The notes below the pieces were generated by a model. It ran no database searches. It was not told where the DNA came from and saw only the letters and a program-made list of their open reading frames with translations. The translations under genes and the position numbers were made by a program. Below, in pieces: positions 20,631 through 34,043 of a stretch of DNA of 64,000 nt. The stretch comes from Streptomyces sp. DG2A-72 (lineage in GTDB: Bacteria > Actinomycetota > Actinomycetes > Streptomycetales > Streptomycetaceae): contig NZ_JASTLC010000001.1 of NCBI RefSeq assembly GCF_030499575.1, forward strand, positions 8,952,001-9,016,000, read 5' to 3'. The stretch's first letter is position 1. Each line of letters starts with the position of its first letter.

Positions 20631-21362
20631 TCAGGCGGGGAACGCGGACCGGGCCAAGCCGCCGAAGTCGAGTACGTGGGTGGTGCCGTTCACACCCCGG
20701 GCCAGGTCGGAGACGAGATAGCAGACGGCCGCCGCGATCTCCTCGGGGCGGTGTACCGGGAACGGCTGGTCGTCGAAGCCGGCCTCGACGAGCCCGAGGT
20801 CGGCCCGGGACATCGGGGTGTCGACGATGCTGGGGGCCACGCAGTTGACCCGCACGCCGTACGGGTCGAGGTCGGTGGCGAGCGCCTTGGCCAGCATCAG
20901 GACGCCGCCCTTGGAGGCGCAGTACGCGGCCATGCCGGGCGCGGCGACGAAGCCGGAGTTGGAGGCGACGAACACGATCGCCCCGCCGCCCCACTCCCGC
21001 ATGGCCCCCGCCGCGTGCTTGGCCAGCAGGAACTGGCCGGTGAGGTTCACCTCGACGGTACGGGAGAAGTCGGCGCGGGAGATGTCGGTGGGTGCCTTGC
21101 CCATGGGGCCGGAGATGCCGGCGCAGCCCACGGCGACGGCGAGGCCTTCGCAGTCCCGTACGGCGCCCGCGACCGCGTCCTCGTCGGTCACGTCGCCGGT
21201 GTGCCAGTGGACGGAGCCGGGCAGGTCCGCCGGCCGCGGGGCGCGGTCGAGGACCGTGACCCGCGCCCCCTCGGCGAGCAGCGCGGTGACGACGGCACGG
21301 CCGATGCCGCTGGCGCCGCCCGTTACCAGGGCCGTACGGCCGGTCAGTTTCAGATCCATCAT
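20631..21362 (-). CDS. Short-chain dehydrogenase/reductase (SDR) 1
   Basis: 243 residues. Classical SDR landmarks: NAD-binding TGGASGIGRAV near residue 14, a CAGISG variant of NNAG near 80, the catalytic Ser region VFVASNSG, Tyr-x3-Lys in AYCASKGG, and a C-terminal GVNGTTHVLDFGG. The Asp after beta-2 (VLDRAPRP) suggests NAD preference. It is the last gene of the permease-SDR-SDR operon; its ATG directly follows the TGA of SDR 2, with a second ATG at 21359. It probably oxidises an alcohol or imine intermediate of the amine/aromatic pathway in this locus. The substrate is inferred only from context. Confidence 0.88.
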   Translation of the reverse strand: MMDLKLTGRTALVTGGASGIGRAVVTALLAEGARVTVLDRAPRPADLPGSVHWHTGDVTDEDAVAGAVRDCEGLAVAVGCAGISGPMGKAPTDISRADFSRTVEVNLTGQFLLAKHAAGAMREWGGGAIVFVASNSGFVAAPGMAAYCASKGGVLMLAKALATDLDPYGVRVNCVAPSIVDTPMSRADLGLVEAGFDDQPFPVHRPEEIAAAVCYLVSDLARGVNGTTHVLDFGGLARSAFPA

Positions 21363-22178
21363 TCAGTCCTGGTTCTGACGTGGGGTGATCCGGAAGTCGA
21401 AGGGCACCGCGCCGGGGTCGATGACCGTGGTGCCGCCGTCGACGGTGAGGGTCGTGCCGTTGACGTACGAGGACCGCGGTCCGAGGAGCCACAGCACGGC
21501 GTCGGCGATCTCCTCGGCGGCGGCCGGGCGGCGCTGGGGGACCAGCGCGGTGACGGCCTCGTACGACTCCTCGACGCTCATGCCCAGCGGGCCGCCGAAC
21601 TCGCGCATCTCCTCGTCGGCCATCTCGGTGCGGGTCCAGCCGGGACAGACCGTGTTGGCGCGCACGCCGAGCGGGCCGAACTCGGCCGCGATGGTGGTGG
21701 TCAGCATCGCCGCGCCGGCCTTGGATGCGGCGTAGGCGGACATGCCGGTGGGCGCGCGCAGGCCGGCGATGGAGCCGACGGTGACGAACGCGCCCCGGGT
21801 GGCGGTGAGTTGGCCGATGGTGGCGCGGGCGAGCAGGAAGACCGAGGTGAGGTTGGTGGCCAGGGTGGCGTCCCAGTCCTCGTCGCTGAGGTCGAGGACC
21901 CCGCCGGGGCGCATGACCCCGGCGTTCGCCACGACCCCGTCGAGCCGGCCGTGTTCGCGTACGACCGACTCGACCAGGTGCTCCACATCCGTGCGGCTGG
22001 TGACGTCGGCGACGTGCGCGGTGGCGCCGCAGCGGGCGGCGACCGCCGCGAGGGCGTCCGGTCGCCGTCCGCAGACGGCGACCCGGGCCCCGGCGGCGCA
22101 CGCGCGCTCGGCGACGGCGGCGCCGATGCCACTGCTCGCTCCGGCGACCAGATAGACGGGCGGCTGTGCTGCGGTCAA
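21363..22178 (-). CDS. Short-chain dehydrogenase/reductase (SDR) 2
   Basis: 271 residues from TTG 22178, whose TTGA overlaps the permease stop, so it is translationally coupled. Motifs: VAGASSGIGAAVAERA (nucleotide binding), CGRRPDAL (the Arg-Arg after beta-2 suggests NADP), VANAGVM, VTVGSIAG, SAYAASKAG (Tyr and Lys), and YVNGTTLTVDGGTTV. Family length is normal. With SDR 1 it forms a pair downstream of an amino acid/amine permease under the shared palindrome at 23702. It may act on a gamma-glutamylated or free aromatic alcohol or aldehyde; not determinable from sequence. Confidence 0.88.
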   Translation of the reverse strand: MTAAQPPVYLVAGASSGIGAAVAERACAAGARVAVCGRRPDALAAVAARCGATAHVADVTSRTDVEHLVESVVREHGRLDGVVANAGVMRPGGVLDLSDEDWDATLATNLTSVFLLARATIGQLTATRGAFVTVGSIAGLRAPTGMSAYAASKAGAAMLTTTIAAEFGPLGVRANTVCPGWTRTEMADEEMREFGGPLGMSVEESYEAVTALVPQRRPAAAEEIADAVLWLLGPRSSYVNGTTLTVDGGTTVIDPGAVPFDFRITPRQNQD

Positions 22179-23614
22179 CGTGTCACCGCCGTACGGGACT
22201 TGACCGCGACGGCGGCGACCACGGCGAGCGCGCACCAGCCGATGGCCCCCAGCGCCGCCCAGATGGTGGGGGAGGGCACCTTGTACACGGAGCCGAAGAG
22301 CGCGCCTCCGGTGATCAGCACGCCTATGACCGCGGCGCCCCAGACCTTGGCCGGGCTCGCGTGCCCACGCAGTCCGCGGGGTGCGCCGAAGCACATCGCG
22401 AGGTAGATCGAGGCCAGGCAGAAGATGCCGAACGCCGACAGCCAGGCGTACCAGCTGAAGTAGTCCGGCAGGCCGGGCACGGAGACGCCCTTCGGGAACG
22501 CCTGGCTGACGAGGAGGATCAGCAGGTAGGCGACGGCGACCACCGCGGTGCCGCCGATCGGGGTGCCGCGCCGGGCGTTCACCCGGGTGAGCTGCTTGGG
22601 CAGCCAGCCGTCGCGGGCCATCGTCAGCACACCGCGGGTGACGGAGACCGAGATGCCGATGTAGACGGCCAGCATGTCGAGGAGGATGACGAGTTCGACC
22701 AGGCGGGCCAGCCAGGTGGCGCCGTACATGCCCGGCGAGGCGAGCGTGGTGAGCGGGGCTCCGGCGTTCTCTGCGACGGCGGAGACGTCGAAGTGGAAGC
22801 CGGCGATCTGGGCGTAGCAGCCGAGCAGGAAGAAGACGGCGGAGGCGATCAGTGAGATGAGGACGGCCCGGGGGATGGACCGCTGGGGTTCGGCCGTCTC
22901 CTCGGCCAGGTTGGCTGCGGCCTCGAAGCCGGTGAAGAGCAGTACGCCGTAGATCACGGAGAAGGCGATGCCGCTGAGGCCCTGGGCCGAGCTGGAGGGC
23001 TTGAAGGCGGTCAGGCTGTTGTCGCCGCCGACCTTGACGATCAGGTAGACGAAGAAGACGGTCAGTACGGCCATGGAGACCAGCGCGAGCGCCAGCTGCA
23101 TCTTGACCGAGATCTGGACGCCGATGTGCACGACGGCGACGACGATCGCCAGGACGATCAGCTGCCAGGCCCACACGGGCACGGCGTCGAAGCCGAACTC
23201 GGCCTTGAGGTCGTCGTACAGAGTGCCGCCGATCAGTACGGCGATGCCCGCGCCGAGGACGAGGACGCCCAGGTAGTAGACGTATCCGGCGGCGGCGCCG
23301 AGGCGGGTGCCGAGACCTTCGGTGACGTAGTTGTAGAGCGATCCGGCGGCGCGGATGCGGCGGGCGTAGGCGGAGACGATCCAGCCGATGCCGAGCATGC
23401 CGATGGTGCCGATGAGCACCGCGAGCGGGGCGGCGGCGCCGGCGCCGTTACCCGTGGCGGTGGTGATGCCCACGAGCATCGGGAGCAGGACGGAGACGGA
23501 GAAGACCGGGCCCATGAAGCCGACCGACTGTGCCACCACGTCGGTGAGGGACAGGGTGCCCGCGGTGGGTGCGGCTTGGGGCGTGGTGCTCGGTGGTGCG
23601 GTCTGGTGCGACAT
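22175..23614 (-). CDS. APC-superfamily amino acid/amine permease
   Basis: 479 residues from ATG 23614; GGAGCGATCC just upstream decides this start over 23626. About 12-13 hydrophobic helices follow a short polar N-terminus. APC marks include VAQSVGFMGPVFSVS in helix 1 with its Gly-rich break, GSLYNYVTEGLGTRLGAAAGYVYYLG, and GFEAAANLAEETAEPQRSIPRAVLIS (consensus GFE....AEE...P.R..P) in the middle. It imports an amino acid or amine across the cell membrane. Heading the permease-SDR-SDR operon, opposite the glutamine-synthetase-like ligase, it is the likely entry point of the pathway. Confidence 0.9.
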   Translation of the reverse strand: MSHQTAPPSTTPQAAPTAGTLSLTDVVAQSVGFMGPVFSVSVLLPMLVGITTATGNGAGAAAPLAVLIGTIGMLGIGWIVSAYARRIRAAGSLYNYVTEGLGTRLGAAAGYVYYLGVLVLGAGIAVLIGGTLYDDLKAEFGFDAVPVWAWQLIVLAIVVAVVHIGVQISVKMQLALALVSMAVLTVFFVYLIVKVGGDNSLTAFKPSSSAQGLSGIAFSVIYGVLLFTGFEAAANLAEETAEPQRSIPRAVLISLIASAVFFLLGCYAQIAGFHFDVSAVAENAGAPLTTLASPGMYGATWLARLVELVILLDMLAVYIGISVSVTRGVLTMARDGWLPKQLTRVNARRGTPIGGTAVVAVAYLLILLVSQAFPKGVSVPGLPDYFSWYAWLSAFGIFCLASIYLAMCFGAPRGLRGHASPAKVWGAAVIGVLITGGALFGSVYKVPSPTIWAALGAIGWCALAVVAAVAVKSRTAVTR

Positions 23615-23701
23615 GGATCGCTCCATCCGGGAAGAGCCGCGGACGTGCGGCGGCGATGGCGGTCGGGAGACGGGCGGCGGGCGCGGGTGGAGCCGATGCT
23701 T

Positions 23702-23723
23702 ATCGTTTGGGCCCGTACGTTAT
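23702..23723. promoter_or_regulatory. Operator A of the catabolic regulon (permease side)
   Basis: ATCGTTTG-GGCC-CGTACGTTAT: left arm CGTTTG, four-base spacer, right arm CGTACG. It has the same geometry as sites B, C and D. It lies about 90 bp before the permease start in the divergent promoter region. The right arm differs from the CAAACG consensus at two positions, so it may be the weaker site. Confidence 0.6.
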
Positions 23724-23818
23724 TCCGGGTTCCGCCTGTCGGCAATGGTCTGGATGTCTCGACTCGGCAAAGGGGTGTGCACTGGGCGCGCCTCTTGCCG
23801 TGCGGTCCGGTCGTGTCT

Positions 23819-23840
23819 ATTGTTTGGTCTCAAACGAAAT
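23819..23840. promoter_or_regulatory. Operator B of the catabolic regulon (ligase operon)
   Basis: ATTGTTTG-GTCT-CAAACGAAAT: arms GTTTG and CAAAC are perfectly complementary across a 4-base spacer. It ends 22 bases before the GTG of the ligase gene, so a bound protein would sit on the core promoter or transcription start. Consensus with A, C and D is CGTTTG-N4-CAAACG. Confidence 0.7.
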
Positions 23841-23862
23841 TCCGGCGAACCGGAGGCCCCCG

Positions 23863-25230
23863 GTGTCAGACAGCACTCCGCCCGCACGCGCCGAACGGCT
23901 CGCGGCCCTCGCCGACGACCTGTCCGGCCGGGGCATCGACCTTGTCCGTGTCCTGTGGAGCGACCTGCACGGCGTCGCCCGGGGCAAGGAGATCGCCACC
24001 GCCGAACTGCCGCACTTCGCCGACCACGGAGTGGCGTTCTGCCAGGCCCTGATGGTCACCGACCTCGGCGGCAACCCGCTCGACGTACCGGAGTCGGCGG
24101 CCAGTGGCTGGCCCGACGCGGACGCCCTGATCGACCCCGACACACTCGCTCTGCCCGGCTACGCGCCCGGCATCGCCTACCTGCTGGCCGAGGTCACCGA
24201 CCCCGCAGCGGGCGGCGCTCCGCTGGGCTTCGACCCGCGGTCCATGCTGCGCGGGCAGATCGACCGGCTGGCCGCCCGCGGACTGCACCCCGTCGTCGCC
24301 CCCGAGCTGGAGTTCTACCTGCTCCGTGAGGATGCCACCGCCACCCACGGCTGGCGTCGCTACCTGGACCGCGACACTGCCGGCTACGTCGTCGGCACGG
24401 CCTACGACCCCGACGACATGCTCCCCCTGCTGATCCGCGAGTGCCGCGCGCTCGGCCTCCAGGTCCACGCGGGATTCCAGGAGTTCAGCGGTGGCCAGTA
24501 CGAGATCAACCAGTGGCACGGCCCCGCGCTCGGGGCGGCCGACCGGGCCTTCCTGTTCAAGTACGCGGTCAAGGAGATCGCGGCGAAACGCGGGATGCGG
24601 GCCACCTTCATGGGCAAGCCATTCGCCGACCGCTCCGGCAGCGGCCAGCACATTCACGTCTCCGTCACTGACGAGCAGGGCACCAACCTCTTCGCCGACA
24701 GCAACGCCGACGACGGGCTCGCCCCGCTCGCCAAGTCCTTCCTGGCCGGCGTCCTGGAGCACGCCCCGGCCCTGATGGCCGTCCTCAACCCGACCGTCAA
24801 CGCCTTCAAGCGCCTCGCCGATCCCGGCTCACTGGCCCCCGTCACCGCCAACTGGGGCTACGACAACCGGCTCGCCTTCGCCCGCATCCCGCCCGAGCGC
24901 GGCCACGGCACCCGCGTCGAGGTCCGCATCGGCGACGGGGCGGCCAATCCCTACCTGGCGATCGCCGCCCTGCTCGCGGCCGGACTCGACGGCATGGAAC
25001 GGGACCTGACACCTCCGCCGCCCATCGCAGGCGCCCGCGGCGACGACGGCGCCCCGCTGCCCACCTCGCTCGGCGCGGCACTCACCGCCCTGGAGACGGA
25101 CAAACTCCTCGCTCAGGCGCTGGGCGACCGCTTCGCCGAGGTGTTCACCGCCCTGAAGCGGCAGGAACTGGCGCGCTTCGACAGGGCCGTCACCGACTGG
25201 GAGTTCCACGAGTACTCGTGGATGCTCTGA
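23863..25230 (+). CDS. Glutamine-synthetase-like gamma-glutamyl-amine ligase (PuuA / GlnA4-like)
   Basis: 455 residues from GTG 23863 with CGGAGG upstream. N-terminal beta-grasp (LVRVLWSDLHGVARGKEI) and a C-terminal catalytic domain with the metal and ATP motifs APELEFYLL, EINQWHGPALGAADRAFLFKYAVKEIA, GSGQHIHVS, NPTVNAFKRL and FARIPPERGHGTRVEVRIGDGAANPY. The adenylylation tyrosine region and signature of true GlnA are absent. This is the homologue group that joins glutamate to amines (polyamines, ethanolamine, aromatic amines) using ATP. First gene of the operon ligase-LLM-ADC-hpaE-hpaD-hpaG, so an amine feeding the Hpa route is the likely substrate (inference). Confidence 0.88.
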   Translation: MSDSTPPARAERLAALADDLSGRGIDLVRVLWSDLHGVARGKEIATAELPHFADHGVAFCQALMVTDLGGNPLDVPESAASGWPDADALIDPDTLALPGYAPGIAYLLAEVTDPAAGGAPLGFDPRSMLRGQIDRLAARGLHPVVAPELEFYLLREDATATHGWRRYLDRDTAGYVVGTAYDPDDMLPLLIRECRALGLQVHAGFQEFSGGQYEINQWHGPALGAADRAFLFKYAVKEIAAKRGMRATFMGKPFADRSGSGQHIHVSVTDEQGTNLFADSNADDGLAPLAKSFLAGVLEHAPALMAVLNPTVNAFKRLADPGSLAPVTANWGYDNRLAFARIPPERGHGTRVEVRIGDGAANPYLAIAALLAAGLDGMERDLTPPPPIAGARGDDGAPLPTSLGAALTALETDKLLAQALGDRFAEVFTALKRQELARFDRAVTDWEFHEYSWML

Positions 25231-25250
25231 AGAACGGAGTGCGTACGACC

Positions 25251-26219
25251 ATGACGACCGTCCCAGCACCCCGCATGCAACTGGTGCTCAGCGAGAACTG
25301 GACCATGACCGGAGGCCGGGCCGACCTGCCCACGCTGGTGCGCTGGGCCCGCGAGGCCGAAGACGCCGGGTTCGACTCCGTGATGATCAGCGAGCACATC
25401 GTGCTCGGCCCCGACGCGGGCGTGAACGGCGTCATGGGCAACCCGCGCGACTACGCCCTGCCGGGCAACCAGGACCCGTACACCCCCTGGCCCAACTCCC
25501 TGATCCTGCTCGGCGCGATCGCGGCCGTGACCGAGCGCCTCCGCCTCGCCGCCTCCGCCGTGATCGCCCCGCTGCGCCACCCGCTGCTGCTCGCCCGCGA
25601 GTTGGGCACCCTCGACCTGCTCTCCGAGGGACGCCTGATGGTGCTGCCCAACGTGAGCTGGAGCCGCGACGAGTACGACGCCCTGGGCGTCCCCTACTCC
25701 CGGCGCGGGAAGCTGCTCGACGAACACCTGGAGATCTGGGCGAAGTTGTGGGGCCCGTCCCCCGTGTCGTACAAGGGCGAGCACTACAGATTCGAGAACG
25801 TCTACTTCGAGCCCAAGGCCCACCGGCCCGACGGCCCGAGGCTCTGCTTCGGCGGCGCCGGCATGCACGACGCCATGGTGCGCCGGATCGTCCGCCACGG
25901 CCACGCCTTCAACCCGCTCGGCCGGCCGACATCCGAGCAGATGCGCATCCTCGCCGACGCGATGGCGGCCGAGGGCCGTGACCTCGCCGACCTGGAGATG
26001 ATCGGCGGCACCCGCGCGGTGTTCCCGGACGATCGCTCGTGCGCCGACCTCGGCCGGGCGCTGGAGTCGATCCCCGAGCAACTGGAGCAGGGCTTCACGA
26101 CGTTCTGTGTGAAGCCCTCGCAGTTCACCGACGACCCGCACGGCGTCGGGGCCTTCTGCCGCGACGTCATACGCCGGGTGGAGTCGCTCACCTCCACCTC
26201 CCCCTCATCCAGCGCCTAA
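25251..26219 (+). CDS. LLM-class flavin / F420-dependent oxidoreductase
   Basis: 322 residues from ATG 25251 (GGAG upstream; GTG 25239 also in frame). It shows the luciferase-like TIM barrel: AREAEDAGFDSVMISEHIVLG, RLRLAASAVIAPLRHPLLLARELGTLDLLSEGRLMVLPNVSW, and EIWAKLWGPSPVSYKGEHYRFENVYFEPK. In actinomycetes such proteins use F420 or FMN to oxidise or hydroxylate small organic substrates. The operon starts 20 bases before it with the ligase gene. It could supply the oxidation of the glutamylated amine that the flavin oxidase PuuB performs in enteric bacteria, but no such activity can be read from the sequence. Confidence 0.88.
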   Translation: MTTVPAPRMQLVLSENWTMTGGRADLPTLVRWAREAEDAGFDSVMISEHIVLGPDAGVNGVMGNPRDYALPGNQDPYTPWPNSLILLGAIAAVTERLRLAASAVIAPLRHPLLLARELGTLDLLSEGRLMVLPNVSWSRDEYDALGVPYSRRGKLLDEHLEIWAKLWGPSPVSYKGEHYRFENVYFEPKAHRPDGPRLCFGGAGMHDAMVRRIVRHGHAFNPLGRPTSEQMRILADAMAAEGRDLADLEMIGGTRAVFPDDRSCADLGRALESIPEQLEQGFTTFCVKPSQFTDDPHGVGAFCRDVIRRVESLTSTSPSSSA

Positions 26220-26227
26220 GGAACGTC

Positions 26228-27037
26228 ATGGCCAGTGTCCGTGGTTACTTCCCTCCCAAGACGGCGACCGGTTCGTCGTCGCTGATCCCCTCCCCGCCGT
26301 GGCACTACTCGGGCGACCTGCTCACCGTCGAGTACCGCACGGATCCCTCGCGGGTACGTGAACTGCTGCCCGAGCCCTTGGAGTTGGCCGACGACGATCC
26401 CGGTGCGGTCGCGCTGATCTGGGCGGACTGGCAGTCCTGCTCGGCGTCGGCCGAAGAACTCCTCGACCCGGTACGAGCCCAGTACAAGGAGGCGTTCGCG
26501 GTCGTCCGCTGCCAGTACCGGGGGCAGACGTACTCGCGCTGTGTGTACATCTGGGTCGACAAGGACTTCGCCATCGCGCGCGGGCTGCACCAGGGGTATC
26601 CGAAGAAGCTCGGGTCCATCCACCAGACGCGTCCGCATCCGTACGGGCCCGCTCCACGGATCGAGGCGGGAGCGCGGTTCGGGGCGACCCTGGCCGCGGC
26701 GGACCGGCGCCTGGCGCAGGCGGTCGTCACTCTGCGGGAGCCGTCGCAGACGAACGGGTTCGTCAACGGGCACGCCATGGCCCATCACCGATGGCTGCCT
26801 TCGATCGAGAAGGGCAAGGGGCTCGCTCTCGATGAGCTGATCGAGTCCGGTGCGGCCTCATTCGAAGGGGGGCAACCCTGGCTCGGTGACGCCGAGCTGG
26901 AGCTCTTCGAGGCGCCGACGGAGGAACTGGCCCGGCTGGAGATCCGGGAGCCGATCGCCGCGTACTACCGCCAGGTCGGGGTGGTGTGGGACGGGGGGCG
27001 GTTGCTGGAGGCCGGTACGTCGTCTGCGCGCCCCTGA
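26228..27037 (+). CDS. Acetoacetate-decarboxylase-fold protein
   Basis: 269 residues from ATG 26228 with AAGGAACG upstream, 8 bases after the LLM gene. It belongs to the ADC family: PPPWHYSG-like N-terminus, DPGAVALIWADWQSCS, RVxELLPEPLEL, and above all GLHQGYPKKLGSI, where the second Lys corresponds to the Schiff-base lysine of acetoacetate decarboxylase and the first Lys lowers its pKa. Members include decarboxylases, aldolases and dehydratases of alpha- and beta-keto acids. Located between the LLM gene and hpaE, it may process a keto-acid product of ring cleavage, possibly replacing a step whose usual gene is missing here. Confidence 0.85.
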   Translation: MASVRGYFPPKTATGSSSLIPSPPWHYSGDLLTVEYRTDPSRVRELLPEPLELADDDPGAVALIWADWQSCSASAEELLDPVRAQYKEAFAVVRCQYRGQTYSRCVYIWVDKDFAIARGLHQGYPKKLGSIHQTRPHPYGPAPRIEAGARFGATLAAADRRLAQAVVTLREPSQTNGFVNGHAMAHHRWLPSIEKGKGLALDELIESGAASFEGGQPWLGDAELELFEAPTEELARLEIREPIAAYYRQVGVVWDGGRLLEAGTSSARP

Positions 27038-27075
27038 TAGGCGTACTCACCCTTCGTTCAAATGGAGCACTTCTC

Positions 27076-28527
27076 ATGTCTGACAAGATCACTGTCGCCG
27101 GGGTTTCCGTCGACACCCGGCACTGGATCGGGGGTCGACGCGTCGCGTCCGCCGAGACGTTCACCGATGTCTCGCCGATCGACGGAAACGCCCTCGGTGA
27201 GGTCGCCCGCGGCGGCCCGGCCGAAGCCGAAGCCGCCGTTGCCGCCGCTCGTGAGGCGTTCCCCGCGTGGGCGGCCACCCCGCGTGCGGAGCGGGCCCGC
27301 ATCCTGCACGCCATTGCCGACGGCGTCGAGAAGCGGATCGAGGAGCTGGCGATCGTCGAGACGAACGACAACGGCGCTCTCCTGCGTTCGCACCGCCGTG
27401 GTGTGATGCCCCGCGTCGCGCACAACTTCCGGTTCTTCGCGGACTGGTTGCTGAAGCTGGACCACGAGGACTTCGAGACGCGCGGCCACACGAACCGGGT
27501 GAGCTGGGACCCGGCGGGCCCGAGTGTGCTGATCACGCCGTGGAACGCGCCGCTGATGCTGGCGACGTGGAAGATCGCCCCGGCCCTCGCCGCCGGCAAC
27601 ACGGTGATCCTCAAGCCCGCCGAGTGGACCCCGCTGACCGCCTCACTGCTCGCGGACATCGCCGCCGCGGCCGGGTTGCCCGCCGGGGTGTTCAACGTCG
27701 TCCAGGGTTACGGCTCCGAGATCGGCGACGCTCTCACCTCGCACCCGGACGTGCGCCGGATCAGCTTCACCGGGTCCGTGCCGACGGCCCAGCGCATCGC
27801 CGGGTCCGCCGCCGTGAATCTCACCCCGCTCAGCCTCGAACTCGGCGGCAAATCACCCCTGTTGGTGTTCGCCGATGCCGACCTGGACCTCGCCGTGGAC
27901 CTCGCGGTGGAGCAGTACGACAACGCCGGGCAGGTCTGCCTCGCGGCGACCCGGTTCCTCGTCGAGGAGTCGGTCGTCGAGGAGTTCACGCGCCGGTTCG
28001 TCGAGAAGGCGAGCGCGCTGAAGCAGGGCGACCCGCGTGACGAGGCCACCGACATCGGGCCCAACATCCACCCCCGTCAGCTGGAGAAGATCGACGGGTT
28101 CGTGCAGCGGGCGCTCGCCGCCGGAGCCCATGCGGTCATCGGCGGACACCGCGGCGACGGGCAGTACTATGCGCCGACGCTGCTCACCGATGTCGCGCAG
28201 GACTCGGAGATCGTGCAGGAGGAGGTCTTCGGACCCGTTCTCACGCTCCAGACCTTCACCACCGAGGACGAAGCCGTCCGCCTCGCCAACGACACCCGCT
28301 TCGGCCTCGCCGCCACCGTCGCCACCGGCGACAAGGAGCGCGCCGAACGTGTCACCGCACAGCTCGTCGCGGGCACGGTCTGGGTCAACTGCTTCTTCGT
28401 CCGCGACCTCCAGGCCCCCTTCGGCGGCTCACGCCAGTCCGGCGTCGGGCGTGAGGGCGGCACCTGGAGCTTCGACTTCTACTGCGACCTCAAGAACACC
28501 GTCACCGCACCGAACGGATGGCAGTAA
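27076..28527 (+). CDS. hpaE: 5-carboxymethyl-2-hydroxymuconate semialdehyde dehydrogenase (HpaE-like ALDH)
   Basis: 483 residues from ATG 27076 with GGAG upstream. ALDH landmarks: PWNAPLMLATWKIAPALAAGNTVILKPAEWTP, the catalytic base Glu in LELGGKSPL, the nucleophile Cys in NAGQVCLAATR, and EEVFGPVLTL. Among ALDHs the wording and the place directly before hpaD match HpaE. That enzyme oxidises the ring-fission product of homoprotocatechuate with NAD to 5-carboxymethyl-2-hydroxymuconate. Its last bases overlap an alternative start of hpaD, so translation is tightly linked. A gamma-glutamyl-aldehyde role is less likely because a separate PuuC-like ALDH exists at 31723. Confidence 0.85.
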   Translation: MSDKITVAGVSVDTRHWIGGRRVASAETFTDVSPIDGNALGEVARGGPAEAEAAVAAAREAFPAWAATPRAERARILHAIADGVEKRIEELAIVETNDNGALLRSHRRGVMPRVAHNFRFFADWLLKLDHEDFETRGHTNRVSWDPAGPSVLITPWNAPLMLATWKIAPALAAGNTVILKPAEWTPLTASLLADIAAAAGLPAGVFNVVQGYGSEIGDALTSHPDVRRISFTGSVPTAQRIAGSAAVNLTPLSLELGGKSPLLVFADADLDLAVDLAVEQYDNAGQVCLAATRFLVEESVVEEFTRRFVEKASALKQGDPRDEATDIGPNIHPRQLEKIDGFVQRALAAGAHAVIGGHRGDGQYYAPTLLTDVAQDSEIVQEEVFGPVLTLQTFTTEDEAVRLANDTRFGLAATVATGDKERAERVTAQLVAGTVWVNCFFVRDLQAPFGGSRQSGVGREGGTWSFDFYCDLKNTVTAPNGWQ

Positions 28528-28529
28528 CC

Positions 28530-29474
28530 ATGGGCGAGATCGTCGGAGCCGGGCTGCTCGCCCACGTACCCACCATCGTGCTCCCCGAGGCCGACCGGCT
28601 GGAATTGAATGAGGGCAAGGAGATCACCCTCGTCACCGGCCTGCACCAGCTCCGCAAGGACGTCTTCGAGTCCGACGACTACGACACCGTCGTCGTCCTC
28701 GACTCCCACTGGGCCACCACCGTCGAATTCGTCGTCACCGCGCAGCAGCGCCGGGCCGGGCTGTTCACCTCCGAGGAACTGCCGCGCGGCATGTGCCGGA
28801 TGCCGTACGACTTCCCCGGCGACCCCGAACTCGCCCACAACATCGCGAAGTTCGCGGACCGGCACGGCACCTGGATCACCGCGATCGAGGACGAGTACCT
28901 GCCGATCTACTACGCCACCATCAACCTCTGGAAGTTCCTGGGGGAGGGGCTGCCGGACAAGCGGTGGGTGACCATCGGGGTCTGCCAGACCGGCGACATG
29001 GAGGACCATCTGCGCCTGGGCCGCGCTCTCGCGGACGGCATCGCCGCCACCCCAGGCCGTCGTGTTCTGGTCATCGCCTCCGGTGCGCTGTCGCACACCT
29101 TCTGGCCGCTGCGCGAGATCCGCGACCACGAGGCCAGCGACCCGGTGCACATCTTCACGCCCGAGGCGCGGGCCGCCGACGAGGAGCGCATCGCCTGGTT
29201 CAAGGAGGGCCGCCACGACAAGGTCCTCGACACCATGGACGCGTTCTGGAAGTACAAGCCGGAGGCGAAGTTCTTCCACTACCTGATGCTTGCCGGCGCC
29301 CTCGGCGAACAGGCGTGCACCGCCAAGGCCCGACAGTACGGCCAGTACGAGAACTCCGTCGGCACCGGCCAGGTCCACCTCTGGTTCGACCGCCCCGCCG
29401 GCGGGTGGACCGGCACCACTCTGCCCGCAGCCGCTTCCCCACGCACCCCGCACAGCCGCCCCCAGGAGGCCTGA
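28530..29474 (+). CDS. hpaD: 3,4-dihydroxyphenylacetate 2,3-dioxygenase, class III extradiol (LigB fold)
   Basis: 314 residues from ATG 28530, matching the usual MGEIVGAGLLAHVPTIVLPE start; ATG 28518 inside hpaE is an alternative. Iron-ligand His residues appear in LLAHVPT and VLDSHWATT; FVVTAQQRRAGLFTSEELPRGMCRMPYDFPGDPELA and VLVIASGALSHTFWPLREIRDHEA are typical of this group. It splits the ring of homoprotocatechuate next to the two hydroxyls using Fe(II) (or Mn) and O2 to give 5-carboxymethyl-2-hydroxymuconate semialdehyde. The C-terminal tail (about 25 residues after LWFDRP) is Pro/Ser-rich and probably disordered. It lies between hpaE and hpaG with almost no gaps. Confidence 0.9.
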   Translation: MGEIVGAGLLAHVPTIVLPEADRLELNEGKEITLVTGLHQLRKDVFESDDYDTVVVLDSHWATTVEFVVTAQQRRAGLFTSEELPRGMCRMPYDFPGDPELAHNIAKFADRHGTWITAIEDEYLPIYYATINLWKFLGEGLPDKRWVTIGVCQTGDMEDHLRLGRALADGIAATPGRRVLVIASGALSHTFWPLREIRDHEASDPVHIFTPEARAADEERIAWFKEGRHDKVLDTMDAFWKYKPEAKFFHYLMLAGALGEQACTAKARQYGQYENSVGTGQVHLWFDRPAGGWTGTTLPAAASPRTPHSRPQEA

Positions 29475-29475
29475 C

Positions 29476-30321
29476 ATGCCTGAATACCGCCGTATCCTCC
29501 TGGACGGCGCCGCCGTCCAGGTCACCGTCGAGGGTGACGAACTGGTCGCCGGGGACGGCCGCCGCGTCAAGACGGAGGAGGCGCGGCACCTTCCGCCGGT
29601 CGTGCCGTCGAAGGTGATCGCCGTCCACCTCAACCACCGCAGCCGCGTGGACGAGTTCCAGATCCGACTGACTCCGACCCCGACGTACTTCCACAAGCCG
29701 ACCTCGGCCCTGAACTCACACCAGGGTGCGATCGTCCGCCCCGAGGGCTGCAAGTGGCTCAACTACGAGGGCGAGGTCGCGATCGTCATCGGCAAGACCG
29801 CGCGCAACATCTCCCCGGCCGAGGCGGGGGAGTACATCGCCGGCTACACCATCGCCAACGACTACGGGCTGCACGACTTCCGGGACACCGACGCCGGGTC
29901 CATGCTCCGCGTCAAGGGCTCCGACACCCTCTGCCCGCTCGGCCCCGGCCTGGTCACCAACTGGGACTTCCACGGCAAGTACCTGAAGACGTATGTCAAC
30001 GGGGAGGTGGTACAGGACGGTTCGACCGACGAGATGGAGTGGGACATGCACTACCTCGTCGCCGACATCGCCCGCACCATCACCCTCTACCCGGGCGATG
30101 TCCTCCTGTCCGGGACGCCCGCCAACTCCCGTCCCGTACGACCCGGTGACATCGTCGAGGTGGAGGTCGAGGGCCTGGGCCGGCTCACCAACCACATCGT
30201 CACCGGCCCGACCCCGATCCGCAGCGACGTGGGCGCGCAGCCCACGGAGTCGGAGGAGGTGCTGTCCACGGCGCTCGGCGGCGACTGGGAGTTCCGTGGC
30301 ATCCGCCCGCCGCAGCGGTAG
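29476..30321 (+). CDS. hpaG: Fumarylacetoacetate-hydrolase-fold decarboxylase/isomerase of the homoprotocatechuate pathway
   Basis: 281 residues from ATG 29476, one base after the hpaD stop, with CAGGAGG upstream. FAH superfamily motifs: KVIAVHLNHRSR, NYEGEVAIVIGKTARN (metal-binding Glu-x-Glu), GYTIANDYGLHDFR, DTLCPLGPGLV and GDVLLSGTPANSRPVRPGDIVEVEVEGLG. In this gene order it should be the 5-oxopent-3-ene-1,2,5-tricarboxylate decarboxylase (and/or isomerase) step. Only one FAH domain is present, so it is half of the duplicated E. coli HpaG. No hpaF, hpaH or hpaI follow it, so later steps must be encoded elsewhere or done by the ADC-fold protein. Confidence 0.85.
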   Translation: MPEYRRILLDGAAVQVTVEGDELVAGDGRRVKTEEARHLPPVVPSKVIAVHLNHRSRVDEFQIRLTPTPTYFHKPTSALNSHQGAIVRPEGCKWLNYEGEVAIVIGKTARNISPAEAGEYIAGYTIANDYGLHDFRDTDAGSMLRVKGSDTLCPLGPGLVTNWDFHGKYLKTYVNGEVVQDGSTDEMEWDMHYLVADIARTITLYPGDVLLSGTPANSRPVRPGDIVEVEVEGLGRLTNHIVTGPTPIRSDVGAQPTESEEVLSTALGGDWEFRGIRPPQR

Positions 30322-30334
30322 ACAGGGGTCACTC

Positions 30335-30360
30335 ACCTGCGTCGATGACCTGTCGCAGGT
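30335..30360. terminator. Inverted repeat after hpaG
   Basis: ACCTGCG and CGCAGGT face each other across 12 bases, starting 13 bases after the hpaG stop and ending just before operator C. It is a possible weak terminator of the six-gene operon. Confidence 0.4.
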
Positions 30361-30365
30361 AACAC

Positions 30366-30388
30366 GTATGATTTGACGCCGAACGAAT
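30366..30388. promoter_or_regulatory. Operator C of the catabolic regulon (MarR autoregulation)
   Basis: TATGATTTG-ACGC-CGAACGAATT: same spacing as A, B and D, with GATTTG and CGAACG as near-consensus arms. It lies 45 bases before the MarR start, which is where an autorepressor site is expected. Confidence 0.6.
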
Positions 30389-30432
30389 TCGTGGGGAACC
30401 CATACGGTTCAGTGGCGCATCGGAGGTGTGCG

Positions 30433-31005
30433 GTGTCCGGGCAACGATCCATCGTCGAGACCGAGAAACTGGTCAAGGCCAAGCTGGGCGACACCCCCAT
30501 CCGCCATGAGCAGATGGCAGTCGTCGCGAACATCCACCGGGCCGCTGCCGCGGTCCGTCAGCACGTGGAGAACTCCGTGCTGCGGGGTTGCGACCTGACC
30601 TGGACCGGGTTCGTCGTGCTCTGGGTCGTGTGGATCTCGGGCGAGACGGAGACGCGGCTCGTCGCCGAGGAGGCCGGGATCTCCAAGGGCACGCTCACGG
30701 GTGTCGCCCGGACACTGGAGTCGCGAGGACTGGTGCGGCGCGTCGAGCACCCCTCCGACGGCCGACGGGTCCTGCTCGGACTCACGGACGCGGGGGAGGC
30801 CCTGATGCAGAGCCTCTTCCCGGAGTTCAACGCGGAGGAGGCCTTCGTCGCCTCCCCGCTGAGCGACGAGGAGTGCCTGGCGACCGCGGACGCGTTGCGC
30901 CGGATCGTCGTCCAGGTCGAGACCCACGGCGAGGAACGCCGCCTGGAACTGCTCGACGGTGCCGAGCCCGCCCCGCGGCGCAGCGGGCGTCGCCCCAGGA
31001 CCTGA
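30433..31005 (+). CDS. MarR-family transcriptional regulator of the catabolic locus
   Basis: 190 residues from GTG 30433 with CGGAGG seven bases upstream; the longer frame to 30373 would run through operator C and is rejected. Winged helix of MarR type: LTWTGFVVLWVVWISGETETRLVAEEAGISKGTLTGVARTLESRGLVRRVEHPSDGRRVLLGLTDAG, flanked by dimerisation helices. These dimers bind 16-22 bp palindromes and release them on binding an aromatic ligand. The four CGTTTG-N4-CAAACG sites in this locus, one directly before this gene, make it the probable repressor of all 13 genes. The ligand may be the amine or a phenylacetate intermediate. Confidence 0.9.
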   Translation: MSGQRSIVETEKLVKAKLGDTPIRHEQMAVVANIHRAAAAVRQHVENSVLRGCDLTWTGFVVLWVVWISGETETRLVAEEAGISKGTLTGVARTLESRGLVRRVEHPSDGRRVLLGLTDAGEALMQSLFPEFNAEEAFVASPLSDEECLATADALRRIVVQVETHGEERRLELLDGAEPAPRRSGRRPRT

Positions 31006-31024
31006 GCCGCGTCGCGCGGGGCGC

Positions 31025-31726
31025 TCAGTCCGTGTCGCGCGCGACGCGTACGAGGGCGTCGAACAGCCCTTGCTGGGCGGGGTCGGTGTGTGCGGTGTCC
31101 TCGGGATGCCACTGCACAGCAGTGAACCAGTTCCGTGTGTCCGGGAGTTCGAGGCCCTCCACGGTGTCGTCGGCGGCGCGGGCGGTCACCGAGAGGCCGG
31201 TGCCGAGGCGGTCCACGCGCTGGTGGTGGTAGCAGGACGCCTCTGTCTTCTCGCCGCCGGTAGCCTGTTCCACCAGCGTGCCGCGTCGGAGCGTCACAGG
31301 GTGCACAAGGTGCCGGTGTTCGCGATCCGGGCCGCCCATGTCCTGTTCGAGGGTGCCGCCGAGGGCGACGTTGACAGCCTGCAGACCACGACAGATCGCC
31401 AGCAGCGGCAGACCCAGGTCCAGTGCGGTACGGGCGACTTCGAGGTCGAAGGCGTCCTGGAGGTCGTCGACGTCGTACACGCTGTCGTGGGTGTCGGTGG
31501 CGCCGTAACGGTGCGGAGCGAGGTCGCCGCCGCCGGGGAGCAGCACGCCGTCGAAGCGGGTGAGACGGGCGGCTACGTCGGTCATCTCCGGGTGGATGCT
31601 CACCGGCTCGCCGCCGGCCCGCCACACGGCCTCGATCAGGGCGCGGGCGTTGACCTCGGCGGCGTACCGGAGCGCGGAGGTGGTGGCGGCGAAGCGTGCC
31701 GGTATGGCGATCAGGGGTCGGGTCAC
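31025..31726 (-). CDS. Gamma-glutamyl-gamma-aminobutyrate hydrolase-like peptidase C26 (PuuD-like)
   Basis: 233 residues from GTG 31726, whose GTGA overlaps the stop of the aldehyde dehydrogenase, so the two are coupled. Class I glutamine-amidotransferase fold of the C26 type: DGVLLPGGGDLAPHRYG, nucleophile Cys in LLAICRGLQAVNVALGGTLEQD, and catalytic His-Glu in AVQWHPED. PuuD-type enzymes cut the gamma-glutamyl amide at the end of the glutamylated-amine route and return free glutamate. The ALDH-hydrolase pair with a glutamine-synthetase-like ligase is the strongest sign that this locus uses gamma-glutamylation. It meets the MarR gene tail to tail 19 bp away. Confidence 0.85.
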   Translation of the reverse strand: MTRPLIAIPARFAATTSALRYAAEVNARALIEAVWRAGGEPVSIHPEMTDVAARLTRFDGVLLPGGGDLAPHRYGATDTHDSVYDVDDLQDAFDLEVARTALDLGLPLLAICRGLQAVNVALGGTLEQDMGGPDREHRHLVHPVTLRRGTLVEQATGGEKTEASCYHHQRVDRLGTGLSVTARAADDTVEGLELPDTRNWFTAVQWHPEDTAHTDPAQQGLFDALVRVARDTD

Positions 31727-33213
31727 AGCTGGATCCAGGTCGTCTTGAGCTCCGTGTACTTCTCCAGGGCGTGTGCGGACTTGTCGCGGCCGTTGCCCGA
31801 CTGCTTCATGCCGCCGAAGGGGACGGTCAGGTCGCCCTCCTCGTAGCAGTTGACCCAGACGGTGCCGGCTCTGAGTGCGCGCGAGACCCGGTGGGCGGTG
31901 GACAGGTCGGAGGTCCACAGGCCGGCGGCCAGACCGTACTCGGTGGCGTTGGCCAGCCGTACGGCCTCGTCGAGGTCGTCGAAGGTGAGCACGGACAGCA
32001 CCGGGCCGAAGATCTCCTCGCGGGCCAGCCGCATCCCCGGGTCCACCCCGTCGAAGACGGTGGGCCGCAGATAGCTGCCGCCGGACTCGGCCAGCGTCCG
32101 GCCACCGCCGGCCCGCAGCCGGGCGCCTTCCTCCAGCCCGGTGCCGATGTGGTCGAGGACGCGCCCGAGGTGGCTCTCGCCCACCATCGCGCCCATCTCG
32201 GTGGCCGGGTCGAGCGGATCACCGACCCGCAGCTCGCCCGCCCGGGCCACGATCGCCTCGGTGACGCGTTCGGCGACCGAGGAGTGCACGAGCAGCCGGG
32301 AGGGGGCGGTGCACATCTCGCCCTGGTTGAAGAAGATGCCCCAGGCCGCGGTGGCGGCGGCCTTCTCCAGGTCGGGGGCGTCCGGGAGGATGATGTTCGG
32401 CGACTTGCCGCCGAGTTCCAGCCAGACGCGCTTGAGGTTGGAGTCCGCCGCGTAGCGCAGGAAGTGGCGGCCGACCGCGGTGGAGCCGGTGAAGGCCAGG
32501 ACGTCCACGTCCGGGTGCAGGCCGAGTGCCCGTCCGGCGACCGGTCCGTCACCGGCGACGACGTTGAGCACGCCGGGCGGCAGCCCTGCCTCGGTGGCGA
32601 TCCGGCCCAGCAGCAGCGCGGACAGCGGGGAGTTCTCCGAAGGCTTGAGCACCACCGTGCAGCCCGCGGCCAGCGCCGGGGCGATCTTCCAACTCGCCAG
32701 TGTCAGCGGGAAGTTCCACGGGACGACCGCCCCGACGACTCCGGCCGGTTCCCGGGTGACCAGGGCGAGCGCTTCCGGTGCGGTGTGCGGCGACTCATCG
32801 GTGAGCTTGTCGGCCAACTGCCCGTACCAGCGGAACGTGTTGATGGCGGCGCGCAGTTCGATGGCGTAGGCGTCGGTGATGGGCTTGCCCATCTCCAGGC
32901 TGACGGCGAGCGCGAGAGTTTCGCGGTACTCCTCCAGCAGGTCGGCGAGGCGCAGCAGGATTCTGCCCCGGTCGGCCGGGGAAAGGCGCGGCCAGGGGCC
33001 GGAATCGAAGGCCCGGCGCGCCGCGGACACCGCCGAGTCCACCTCCCCGGGCCCGGCGTCGGCCACCTGGGCGAGCACCTGGCCGTCACGGGGTGAGACC
33101 ACCGGAAAACTGCGACCGCTCCCGGCTTCCCCGACACCGTCGATGTGGTGGGTCGTCGGCAGCGTCAGCGCCTTGGCCAGGTGCAGCCACTCGTCATGGG
33201 TGCGGTCCGCCAT
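31723..33213 (-). CDS. Aldehyde dehydrogenase (PuuC/BetB-like)
   Basis: 496 residues from ATG 33213 with GGGAGACATCC upstream. ALDH core: VGAVVPWNFPLTLASWKIAPALAAGCTVVLKPSENSPL, Glu in WLELGGKSPNIIL, nucleophile Cys in FNQGEMCTAPSRLLV, and EEIFGPVLSVLTF. Length and the VNCYEEGDLTVPFGGMKQSGNGRDKS ending match gamma-glutamyl-aminobutyraldehyde/aminoaldehyde dehydrogenases. Coupled to the C26 hydrolase gene and headed by operator D 28 bp upstream. Its likely job is oxidation of a gamma-glutamylated aldehyde to the acid, the step before glutamate removal. The true aldehyde is not known. Confidence 0.88.
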   Translation of the reverse strand: MADRTHDEWLHLAKALTLPTTHHIDGVGEAGSGRSFPVVSPRDGQVLAQVADAGPGEVDSAVSAARRAFDSGPWPRLSPADRGRILLRLADLLEEYRETLALAVSLEMGKPITDAYAIELRAAINTFRWYGQLADKLTDESPHTAPEALALVTREPAGVVGAVVPWNFPLTLASWKIAPALAAGCTVVLKPSENSPLSALLLGRIATEAGLPPGVLNVVAGDGPVAGRALGLHPDVDVLAFTGSTAVGRHFLRYAADSNLKRVWLELGGKSPNIILPDAPDLEKAAATAAWGIFFNQGEMCTAPSRLLVHSSVAERVTEAIVARAGELRVGDPLDPATEMGAMVGESHLGRVLDHIGTGLEEGARLRAGGGRTLAESGGSYLRPTVFDGVDPGMRLAREEIFGPVLSVLTFDDLDEAVRLANATEYGLAAGLWTSDLSTAHRVSRALRAGTVWVNCYEEGDLTVPFGGMKQSGNGRDKSAHALEKYTELKTTWIQL

Positions 33214-33240
33214 GGATGTCTCCCGGGGTGCGCGATGCAT

Positions 33241-33262
33241 TACGTTTGAAGCCAAACGATAT
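33241..33262. promoter_or_regulatory. Operator D of the catabolic regulon (ALDH / amidotransferase divergent promoter)
   Basis: TACGTTTG-AAGC-CAAACGATAT has perfect complementary arms ACGTTTG/CAAACG(A) around a 4-base spacer, the best match of the four sites. It lies 28 bp before the ALDH start and 77 bp before the divergent amidotransferase start, so one dimer could control both. Confidence 0.7.
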
Positions 33263-33338
33263 CGCCGGGTCGGCGCTCCCCACAAGAGCCGTCCGCTCCC
33301 GCACCATCGCCGCCGAAAAGCCGAGAAGAGGAGAGCCC

Positions 33339-34043
33339 GTGCGCGCCCTCGTCATACGTCACGACCACGCGTCCCTGTCCGGTCCCATCGGCGACCGTGT
33401 CGCCCAGCTCGGTTACCGGATCGACGAGGTGACGGTCGTCCCCGAGGCCCGTCACCGGACCCCCGCCCTGGACTTCGACTTCCCCGACCCCGCCGGCTAC
33501 GACCTGCTGATCCCGCTCGGCGCCCCCTGGTCGGTCTACGACCGGAGCACGGTCGCCCCGTGGATCGACGGCGAACTGGAGCTGCTGCGCACCGCGCACG
33601 CCTCGGACCTGCCCGTCCTCGGTATCTGCTTCGGCGCCCAGGTCCTGGCGACGGCCCTGGGCGGGAGCGTGGAGCAGGCGCCCCGTCCGGAGATCGGCTG
33701 GATGACCGTCGAGTCCGACGCGCCGGAGCTCATCCCGCCAGGTCCCTGGTTCCAGTGGCACTTCGACCGCTTCGTGACGCCGCCGGGAGCCGTGGAGCTC
33801 GCCCGCAGCGCCGTCGGCCCACAGGCGTTCCGGGCCGGCCGGGCCCTCGGGGTGCAGTTCCACCCCGAACTCACCGAGGAGACGCTACAGCGGTGGCTCG
33901 ACCTTGGCGGACGCCGGCAGGCCAGGGAACACGGCATGGACCCCGATCGACTGCTCGCCGAGACTCGGAGCCTGCAAGAGGAGTCCGTGCGGAGGGCGTA
34001 CGGCATCGTGGACGCGTTTCTGGCACAGGTGGCCCGGAACTGA
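33339..34043 (+). CDS. Class I glutamine amidotransferase (GATase1, GuaA-N-like)
   Basis: 234 residues from GTG 33339 with GAGGAGAG upstream. Triad elements: LGICFGAQVLATALGG (Cys nucleophile) and LGVQFHPELTEE (His-Glu). Early strands RALVIRHDHASLSGPIGDRV resemble stand-alone amidotransferases related to GMP synthase N-domains and to proteins found beside GlnA-like ligases. It is therefore a second glutamyl hydrolase in the locus, distinct from the C26 enzyme. It may act on a different gamma-glutamyl intermediate or recycle glutamine. Divergent from the ALDH over operator D. Confidence 0.82.
   Translation: MRALVIRHDHASLSGPIGDRVAQLGYRIDEVTVVPEARHRTPALDFDFPDPAGYDLLIPLGAPWSVYDRSTVAPWIDGELELLRTAHASDLPVLGICFGAQVLATALGGSVEQAPRPEIGWMTVESDAPELIPPGPWFQWHFDRFVTPPGAVELARSAVGPQAFRAGRALGVQFHPELTEETLQRWLDLGGRRQAREHGMDPDRLLAETRSLQEESVRRAYGIVDAFLAQVARN

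Follow-up and report, generated by a model that had tools for sequence, protein, structure and literature searches.

The stretch of 64,000 nucleotides analysed here (the window; positions 8,952,001 to 9,016,000 of contig NZ_JASTLC010000001.1 from the 10.58-Mb genome of Streptomyces sp. DG2A-72) carries at 20631-34043 a gene set in which relatives of the homoprotocatechuate (Hpa) ring-cleavage enzymes stand together with relatives of the putrescine (Puu) pathway enzymes. All genes named in an earlier, sequence-only reading of the window were found there by open reading frame (ORF) inspection and by Pfam and NCBIfam searches. The Hpa and Puu names denote the nearest family only, and every Hpa or Puu model scores under its curated NCBIfam cut-off; of the top-scoring models for the 13 proteins, that of an LLM oxidoreductase alone is over it. 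The core is one plus-strand directon of six genes with intergenic gaps of 1-38 bases. It comprises a glutamine synthetase (GS)-like ligase, proposed to be a gamma-glutamyl amine ligase (23863..25230; GS catalytic domain PF00120), the LLM flavin/F420 oxidoreductase (25251..26219; PF00296; TIGR03619, 173.8 bits, cut-off 166.9), an ADC/MppR-fold protein, proposed to be a hydratase-aldolase (26228..27037; PF06314; PDB 4jm3, MppR, 158 bits; 5upb, 100 bits), an HpaE-like semialdehyde dehydrogenase (27076..28527; TIGR02299, 532.9 bits, cut-off 638), a LigB/HpaD-like extradiol dioxygenase, called LigB below (28530..29474; PF02900; PDB 8iq8, E 1.1e-17; HpaD, 127 bits of the 316 set as cut-off), and a single-domain FAH protein, proposed to be a decarboxylase/isomerase (29476..30321; best model the generic FAH family PRK12764, 227 of 444 bits; HpaG-C second, 207 of 276). 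A MarR/HpaR-like regulator follows on the same strand (30433..31005; PF01047; HpaR, 46 of 121 bits); its start codon was placed from homologues, the longer open frame beginning at 30373.

Beyond the regulator, the minus strand encodes a C26 amidotransferase-fold hydrolase of the PuuD type, proposed to be a gamma-glutamyl-gamma-aminobutyrate (gamma-Glu-GABA) hydrolase (31025..31729; PF07722), and a PuuC/KauB-type aldehyde dehydrogenase (ALDH) whose gene overlaps that of the hydrolase (31726..33213), followed on the plus strand by a class-I glutamine amidotransferase-like protein (GATase; 33339..34043; PF00117; PRK07053, 127 of 250 bits). On the other side of the directon, the minus strand carries two short-chain dehydrogenases/reductases (SDRs; 20631..21362, best NCBIfam SDR model 167 of 215 bits, and 21363..22178, also recognised by NCBIfam SDR models) and an APC-family permease, a probable importer of amines or amino acids (22175..23614; PF00324/PF13520; weak ethanolamine-permease model, 69 of 382 bits). 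The permease start codon is likewise an assignment, a longer open frame reaching 23626. Among the window ORFs read, none encodes PuuB, HpaBC, hpaF, hpaH or hpaI, in agreement with the absences listed by the sequence-only reading. A genome-wide search, made for hpaH only, gave two matches (212 and 168 bits) under the cut-off of 351, and 14 control genomes likewise had none over it. Rieske oxygenase components were not found by a Pfam scan of 10 of 13 proteins (the other three being the two SDRs and an ALDH), and assembly-line genes are absent from the window cluster as judged by eye.

The units share a palindromic operator, TTTGRNNYCAAACGA, as had been claimed before: three sites with at most one mismatch lie in the cluster (plus strand), namely two exact matches in the permease/ligase (23822..23837) and ALDH/GATase (33244..33259) intergenic regions and one copy ahead of the regulator gene with a single mismatch in the 15-base core (30371..30386). 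At the same stringency the whole genome holds six sites vs two for the reversed-pattern control. Two of the remaining three are found between the reductase and ligase genes of a second locus (C1:601685-601808), so that the operator is common to the window and to a P450/ferredoxin/reductase/ligase locus of the other chromosome arm. The last one, at C1:4301288, probably reflects chance; the genes behind it, judged by eye, encode a lipoprotein-like protein and a two-component system. When three mismatches were allowed in the window alone, 14 matches were obtained vs 7.3 expected, a weak enrichment that was equalled in 3 of 100 shuffles.

The locus on the other arm (C1:596894-604542; L118, L119) is a half cluster. 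Intact genes for a reductase, a ferredoxin, a P450 and a GS-like ligase of a different type (GSb) are accompanied by TetR and a broken second P450, and by remnants of FAH (residues 1-88 and 128-281, in pieces), LigB (183-309) and the ADC-fold protein (10-167); HpaE is missing. For comparison, 80 related loci were examined, which are the best 80 of 269 LigB relatives (79 titled Streptomyces, 1 Kitasatospora) and, as close relatives, are not independent; gene calls outside annotated records are GC-frame calls. HpaE, LigB and FAH are present in all 80 and the ADC-fold protein in 79, followed by ferredoxin reductase, ferredoxin, PuuC-like ALDH and TetR (73 each), the C26 hydrolase (72), the permease (71) and the P450 (68). 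A ligase accompanies them in 74 loci (GSb in 70, a further type, GSc, in four), and in the six others the contig ends less than 4.5 kb upstream of LigB. MarR (46/80), GATase (20/80), LLM (19/80) and a second P450 (15/80) are less frequent. In the common form of the cluster the ligase is accompanied by P450, ferredoxin and reductase, and the operator 14-mer was found in 76 of the 80 loci, a count that has no shuffle control. An amidohydrolase gene occurs in three of the 80 loci, and in a few clusters it adjoins the LLM gene (L008, 19028-20752; L124, 3245-5002).

Judged from the sequences, the common cluster appears to be split in DG2A-72, its upstream half surviving on the other arm and its ring-cleavage half lying in the window. 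The P450/ferredoxin/reductase set of the other arm is most likely the missing ring hydroxylase, because it stands beside the ligase both in the widespread cluster and on the other arm of the same genome. The sequence-only reading had offered the LLM oxidoreductase, the SDRs and the ADC-fold protein as fillers of the gaps in the pathway. The ADC-fold protein, with MppR as its nearest relative, suits such a role; as hydroxylases, the LLM protein and the SDRs give way to the P450 set, whose three components accompany the ligase in 68, 73 and 73 of the 80 loci. Loci such as L008, L014 and L025 have an LLM gene besides the P450 set.

A different arrangement was found in four of the 80 loci (L031, L046, L060, L084), in which a pyridoxal phosphate (PLP)-dependent decarboxylase gene stands between those for FAH and ADC and both P450 and reductase are missing. 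L085 lacks all three. The best models of the variant decarboxylase are tyrosine decarboxylases, far under cut-off (122 of 905 and 121 of 299 bits), and its nearest solved structures are the putative decarboxylase 5hsi and the aromatic amino acid decarboxylase 6ebn. DG2A-72 itself encodes a PLP enzyme that resembles tyrosine decarboxylases and shares 80% identity with the cluster decarboxylase; its gene (C1:9053317-9054675; L147, L150) is located 37 kb outside the window on the far side, next to a MarR-like gene. Plasmids can carry the set as well. Plasmid pSLUN1 of Streptomyces lunaelactis holds the decarboxylase, FAH, LigB, HpaE, ALDH, C26, ADC, MarR, ligase and an amino-acid permease (62-87% identical to the query set), with a SpoIIE phosphatase gene inside the set, operator-like palindromes between units (matched with a less strict 13-base pattern), and no P450 seen in the 29 kb read. 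Its record names the decarboxylase an aminotransferase class V-fold PLP enzyme and the C26 protein a 'gamma-glutamyl-gamma-aminobutyrate hydrolase family protein'. Operator-like palindromes also stand ahead of the amino-acid permease and of an M14 zinc carboxypeptidase (L182, 15370-18664), which hints that peptide-derived amino acids may feed the plasmid-borne set. An Embleya megaplasmid, with no gene annotation in that region, has the P450 form.

Across 293 genomes of the order, LigB was detected at E 1e-30 in 48 and with at least 72% identity in 44 (about 15%); the four left out have a LigB 53-57% identical, and their loci (L120-L123) share only LigB with the cluster. GSb is present in 45 of the 293 genomes, comprising all 44 LigB genomes vs 1 of the 249 others (G050, a partial match; Fisher p 1e-51, ignoring shared ancestry). 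The two genes need not be neighbours, being about 12 kb apart in G204, on separate contigs in G124 and G021 and on different arms in DG2A-72. The proposal that the ligase belongs with ring-cleavage genes of the homoprotocatechuate type is borne out by this co-occurrence and by the common operator.

The association extends beyond the genus. Among 396 genomes of the phylum, 37 have LigB at E 1e-30, of which 34 lie outside the genus, and 15 of these loci (LigB identity 42-58%) were read alongside 15 other regions at arbitrary positions from 10 of the same 15 genomes as controls. Gene order and strand are shuffled in the distant loci, and much of the set is kept: GS was found in 11 loci vs 2 controls, HpaE in 11 vs 1, and ADC, FAH and P450 in 10 vs 1 each. 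The GS count includes L163, whose ligase groups with a paralogue type (L003) of the DG2A-72 genome, and the one ADC and one FAH of the controls both come from L175, a region that shares its contig with LigB in G328 at a distance of about 16 kb, and could be part of that LigB cluster. PLP decarboxylase (6 vs 0), GabT-like aminotransferase (6 vs 1), MarR (6 vs 0), succinic semialdehyde dehydrogenase (SSADH)-like genes (5 vs 0), APC permease (5 vs 0), LLM (4 vs 0), SDR (4 vs 2) and GATase (3 vs 0) follow. The GabT-like gene adjoins LigB in L151, L153, L154, L159 and L161, though not in L160, and five of these six loci also have SSADH-like genes. For the L160 protein the GABA transaminase model gives 376 bits (cut-off 507) and a broader aminotransferase subfamily model 476 of 574. 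A GABA transaminase beside the dioxygenase agrees with GABA as an end product.

Several enzymes were compared with characterised relatives. The ADC-fold protein, whose nearest solved structure is MppR, does not reach the MppR equivalog model (TIGR04460, 175 of 380 bits). In the alignment with GMPKQFG of MppR, its GYPKKLG motif places Lys126 opposite the lysine that serves MppR as catalytic (Schiff-base) residue. In the accessible part of a study on archaeal phenol meta-cleavage, the ADC/MppR-like family is proposed to supply the aldolase, and two archaeal members are 77- and 82-fold up on phenol (PMC7820114). The PuuC-like ALDH is closest to gamma-Glu-aminobutyraldehyde dehydrogenases (PDB 4lih, 585 bits; KauB 6b4r, 579 bits; PuuC model, 562 of 850), which lead the next named PDB function by about 130 bits (phenylacetaldehyde dehydrogenase 4o5h, 451; the function-unnamed ALDH 7uyy gives 500) and the next NCBIfam model by 71. 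The nearest structures of the C26 hydrolase are 3fij (116 bits), 7d4r (83) and PuuD 6vtv (58), in this order, with 64 of 266 bits for the PuuD model.

The window ligase scores higher with type III glutamate-ammonia ligase (302 of 470 bits) than with gamma-Glu-putrescine synthetase, PuuA (279 of 650). The gene list of the sequence-only reading is right; for this ligase and for the FAH protein, which is closer to generic FAH than to HpaG, another model scores above the Puu or Hpa one. A relative of the window ligase and a LigB relative occur on equally sized contigs (51,214 and 10,912 bases) in two other sources, which suggests that the two genes are linked there. In an alignment, the flap glutamate of the GlnA1-like paralogue (PGFEAP) is lost in the window ligase (PGSLAP) and in GSb (PDTLAP), and it is absent from that column in 13 of the 13 cluster-linked ligases shown; L163 has a glutamate one column earlier. 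Asp50 stays in place in all 17 sequences of the alignment, that of the window ligase among them. Of the two losses looked for as marks of the glutamyl organic amide synthetase (GoaS) type, that of the flap glutamate is seen and that of Asp50 is not. An identity of the window ligase with GlnA4 was rejected on indirect grounds: L003, the GS of the same genome that has an ALDH neighbour and stands in for GlnA4, is 35% identical and lies on another branch.

Gene content, conservation, co-occurrence and the shared operator are observed, and from these we infer a substrate and a series of reactions. The gene set is real, its ligase and dioxygenase are co-inherited under a common operator, and it is best read as a new pathway combined from two known ones. 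Tyramine- or dopamine-like amines, already put forward by the sequence-only reading, remain the best substrate candidates in view of the co-occurrence, the shared operator and the decarboxylase variants. The amine would be imported or formed by decarboxylation of an amino acid and converted by the GS-like ligase to a gamma-glutamyl amine. The P450/ferredoxin/reductase set of the other arm would add the second hydroxyl where needed (to tyramine; dopamine needs none), upon which LigB would open the ring with the tag still on, the HpaE-like enzyme would oxidise the semialdehyde and the FAH protein would decarboxylate and isomerise the product. Hydration and retro-aldol cleavage by the ADC/MppR-fold enzyme would then yield 4-(gamma-glutamylamino)butanal along with pyruvate. 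Acting last, the PuuC-like ALDH and the PuuD-like hydrolase would release glutamate and GABA. The canonical route, as outlined in the available text of a recent report, leads from 3,4-dihydroxyphenylacetate to pyruvate and succinic semialdehyde (PMC12718150). Here the side chain CH2COOH would be replaced by CH2CH2NH-gammaGlu, and therefore the aldolase product would be the substrate of PuuC and not succinic semialdehyde. With the tag kept through ring cleavage, PuuB and hpaH/hpaI would be unnecessary. The mask would also guard against condensation of a free amine with the ring-opened aldehyde. The GATase might undo surplus glutamylation, by analogy with the GAT-like partner of aniline systems.

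We regard it as probable that the window encodes one ligase and the steps from ring cleavage onwards of a gamma-glutamyl-masked pathway for a catecholic amine of the phenethylamine type. Opinion is evenly balanced on the fuller proposal, in which gamma-glutamyl serves as an amine protecting group, put on first and taken off last as gamma-Glu-GABA, in a pathway that is complete, widely distributed and in some cases carried on plasmids, joins Hpa and Puu at 4-(gamma-glutamylamino)butanal and lets the amine end as GABA.

A number of observations weigh against these proposals. The Hpa and Puu equivalogs all stay under their cut-offs and the best model of the ligase is a glutamate-ammonia ligase. 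The window ligase and the conserved GSb are not orthologous and stand on separate branches of the tree, and at E 1e-150 the window type was found in its own genome only among the 293 of the order. Paralogues of the same genome outside the cluster (L003, L006) also lack the flap glutamate. NpaA1 is reported, in the accessible text, to lose Asp50, so that ligases without the flap glutamate and with Asp50 show half of the NpaA1 pattern (PMC11335346). The FAH protein has a single domain and no CHM isomerase was seen; canonical decarboxylation is said, in the available part of the report, to work best with three proteins (PMC12718150), up to three of which the one domain would have to replace. The scheme has no step for the LLM protein, the SDRs or the second P450, nor a firm one for the GATase. 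Two of the Puu-like genes are not constant either: the second ALDH (ALDH2) and C26 are missing from three Streptomyces loci on long enough contigs (L018, L039, L083), and in the distant loci the PuuC-like ALDH (3 vs 2 controls) and C26 (2 vs 0) are scarce. A decarboxylase is present in only 13 of the 44 LigB genomes and 13 of the 249 others (p 9e-6, ignoring phylogeny), no operator copy with at most one mismatch lies near that of DG2A-72, and a diaminobutyrate decarboxylase model gives the top score, under its cut-off, for each of the three distant decarboxylases that were scanned. Finally, the class-III aminotransferase and SSADH-like genes would equally suit a conventional route to succinic semialdehyde.

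In such a conventional homoprotocatechuate route, the amine would be deaminated to 3,4-dihydroxyphenylacetate before ring cleavage, and the ligase and Puu-like genes would serve a separate amine (a polyamine or ethanolamine) as mere neighbours under one regulator. By its title, the work of Arcos from 2010 reportedly traces tyramine and dopamine catabolism of Pseudomonas putida U through 3,4-dihydroxyphenylacetate, the ring-cleavage genes of the window are nearest to HpaD, HpaE and HpaR, with HpaG-C second for FAH, and in some distant clusters LigB has an aminotransferase and an SSADH-like ALDH for neighbours. We nevertheless consider this route unlikely, in view of the joint presence of ligase and dioxygenase in 44 of 44 genomes with a common operator, the lack of an amine oxidase (by eye) in the Streptomyces clusters read gene by gene, and the PuuC/PuuD-like pair, which it leaves unexplained. 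Very improbable is the order of events given by the sequence-only reading, in which the glutamylated amine is turned into a glutamylated acid and released, and free 3,4-dihydroxyphenylacetate is then ring-cleaved. It would give a place to the PuuC- and PuuD-like genes, which share the operator, but an arylethylamine carbon on an acylated nitrogen cannot become an acid while tagged, and the window shows no PuuB-like ORF.

The masked logic might also apply to another catecholic amine, such as one of the benzylamine type (leading to beta-alanine), a methoxylated one or a beta-hydroxylated one (octopamine, noradrenaline), with the LLM protein and the SDRs handling the extra group. The window variant, which has an LLM and two SDRs and lacks a local P450 and decarboxylase, would suit this possibility, as would the LLM and SDR counts of the distant loci and the second P450 of 15 loci; the tyrosine-decarboxylase-like and GabT-like genes fit a C2 side chain better, and we allow this alternative a small but appreciable chance. 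A biosynthetic cluster with the ring-cleavage product as building block is scarcely credible. It draws on the four LigB homologues of the order with 53-57% identity, three of whose loci (L120-L122) look secondary-metabolite-like by eye, with asparagine-synthase-like and HpaB-like genes; against it, those four loci have only LigB in common with the cluster, and no assembly-line genes were noticed here.

The masked pathway proposed for phenethylamine-type substrates resembles several known systems. With the hpa/hpc pathway it shares the LigB-type, HpaE-like, FAH/HpaG-like and HpaR-like proteins and the logic of ring opening, oxidation, decarboxylation and aldolase; it differs in having one FAH domain, in the HpaBC, hpaF, hpaH and hpaI genes not seen alongside, and in the added ADC/MppR-fold protein, GS-like ligase and Puu-like enzymes. 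The Puu putrescine pathway has a comparable GS-like ligase, PuuC-like ALDH, PuuD-like hydrolase and, as proposed here, a gamma-Glu-GABA end, whereas no PuuB is seen in the window and the aldehyde would arise by aldolase cleavage of an opened aromatic ring. The aniline and 1-naphthylamine systems (AtdA1, NpaA1), in the accessible account, likewise use GS-like glutamylation before oxygen attack and a GATase-like partner, but with a Rieske dioxygenase that forms a diol from the glutamylated arylamine; here a P450 and extradiol cleavage would act, and the tag is proposed to be kept (PMC11335346). The GlnA4 ethanolamine cluster of Streptomyces coelicolor also combines a GS-like ligase, SDR, ALDH, transporter, regulator and GATase; ring-cleavage genes do not figure in the available part of that report (PMC6529630), and the presumed counterpart in DG2A-72, L003 (guessed from its ALDH neighbour), is on another branch. 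The 3,4-dihydroxyphenylacetate catabolon of Pseudomonas putida U is alike in covering tyramine and dopamine and unlike, by its title, in running via 3,4-dihydroxyphenylacetate.

No such pathway was described in the titles and abstract starts of the open-access literature searched, and cluster-type dioxygenases are named in records as plain 3,4-dihydroxyphenylacetate 2,3-dioxygenase or even 'catechol 1,2-dioxygenase'. If true, the proposal would add a new route for the mineralisation of catecholamines and tyramine, present in about 15% of the sampled genomes of the order (44/293), and one scheme would account for the Puu-like and Hpa-like genes together without PuuB or hpaH/hpaI. The ADC-fold protein would gain a proposed catabolic aldolase role, and the predictions could be tested with commercial amines. 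It would also bear on how streptomycetes meet catechols: according to the accessible text of one report, epinephrine and dopamine raise siderophore production in these bacteria and catechol elicits angucyclines (PMC9814775).

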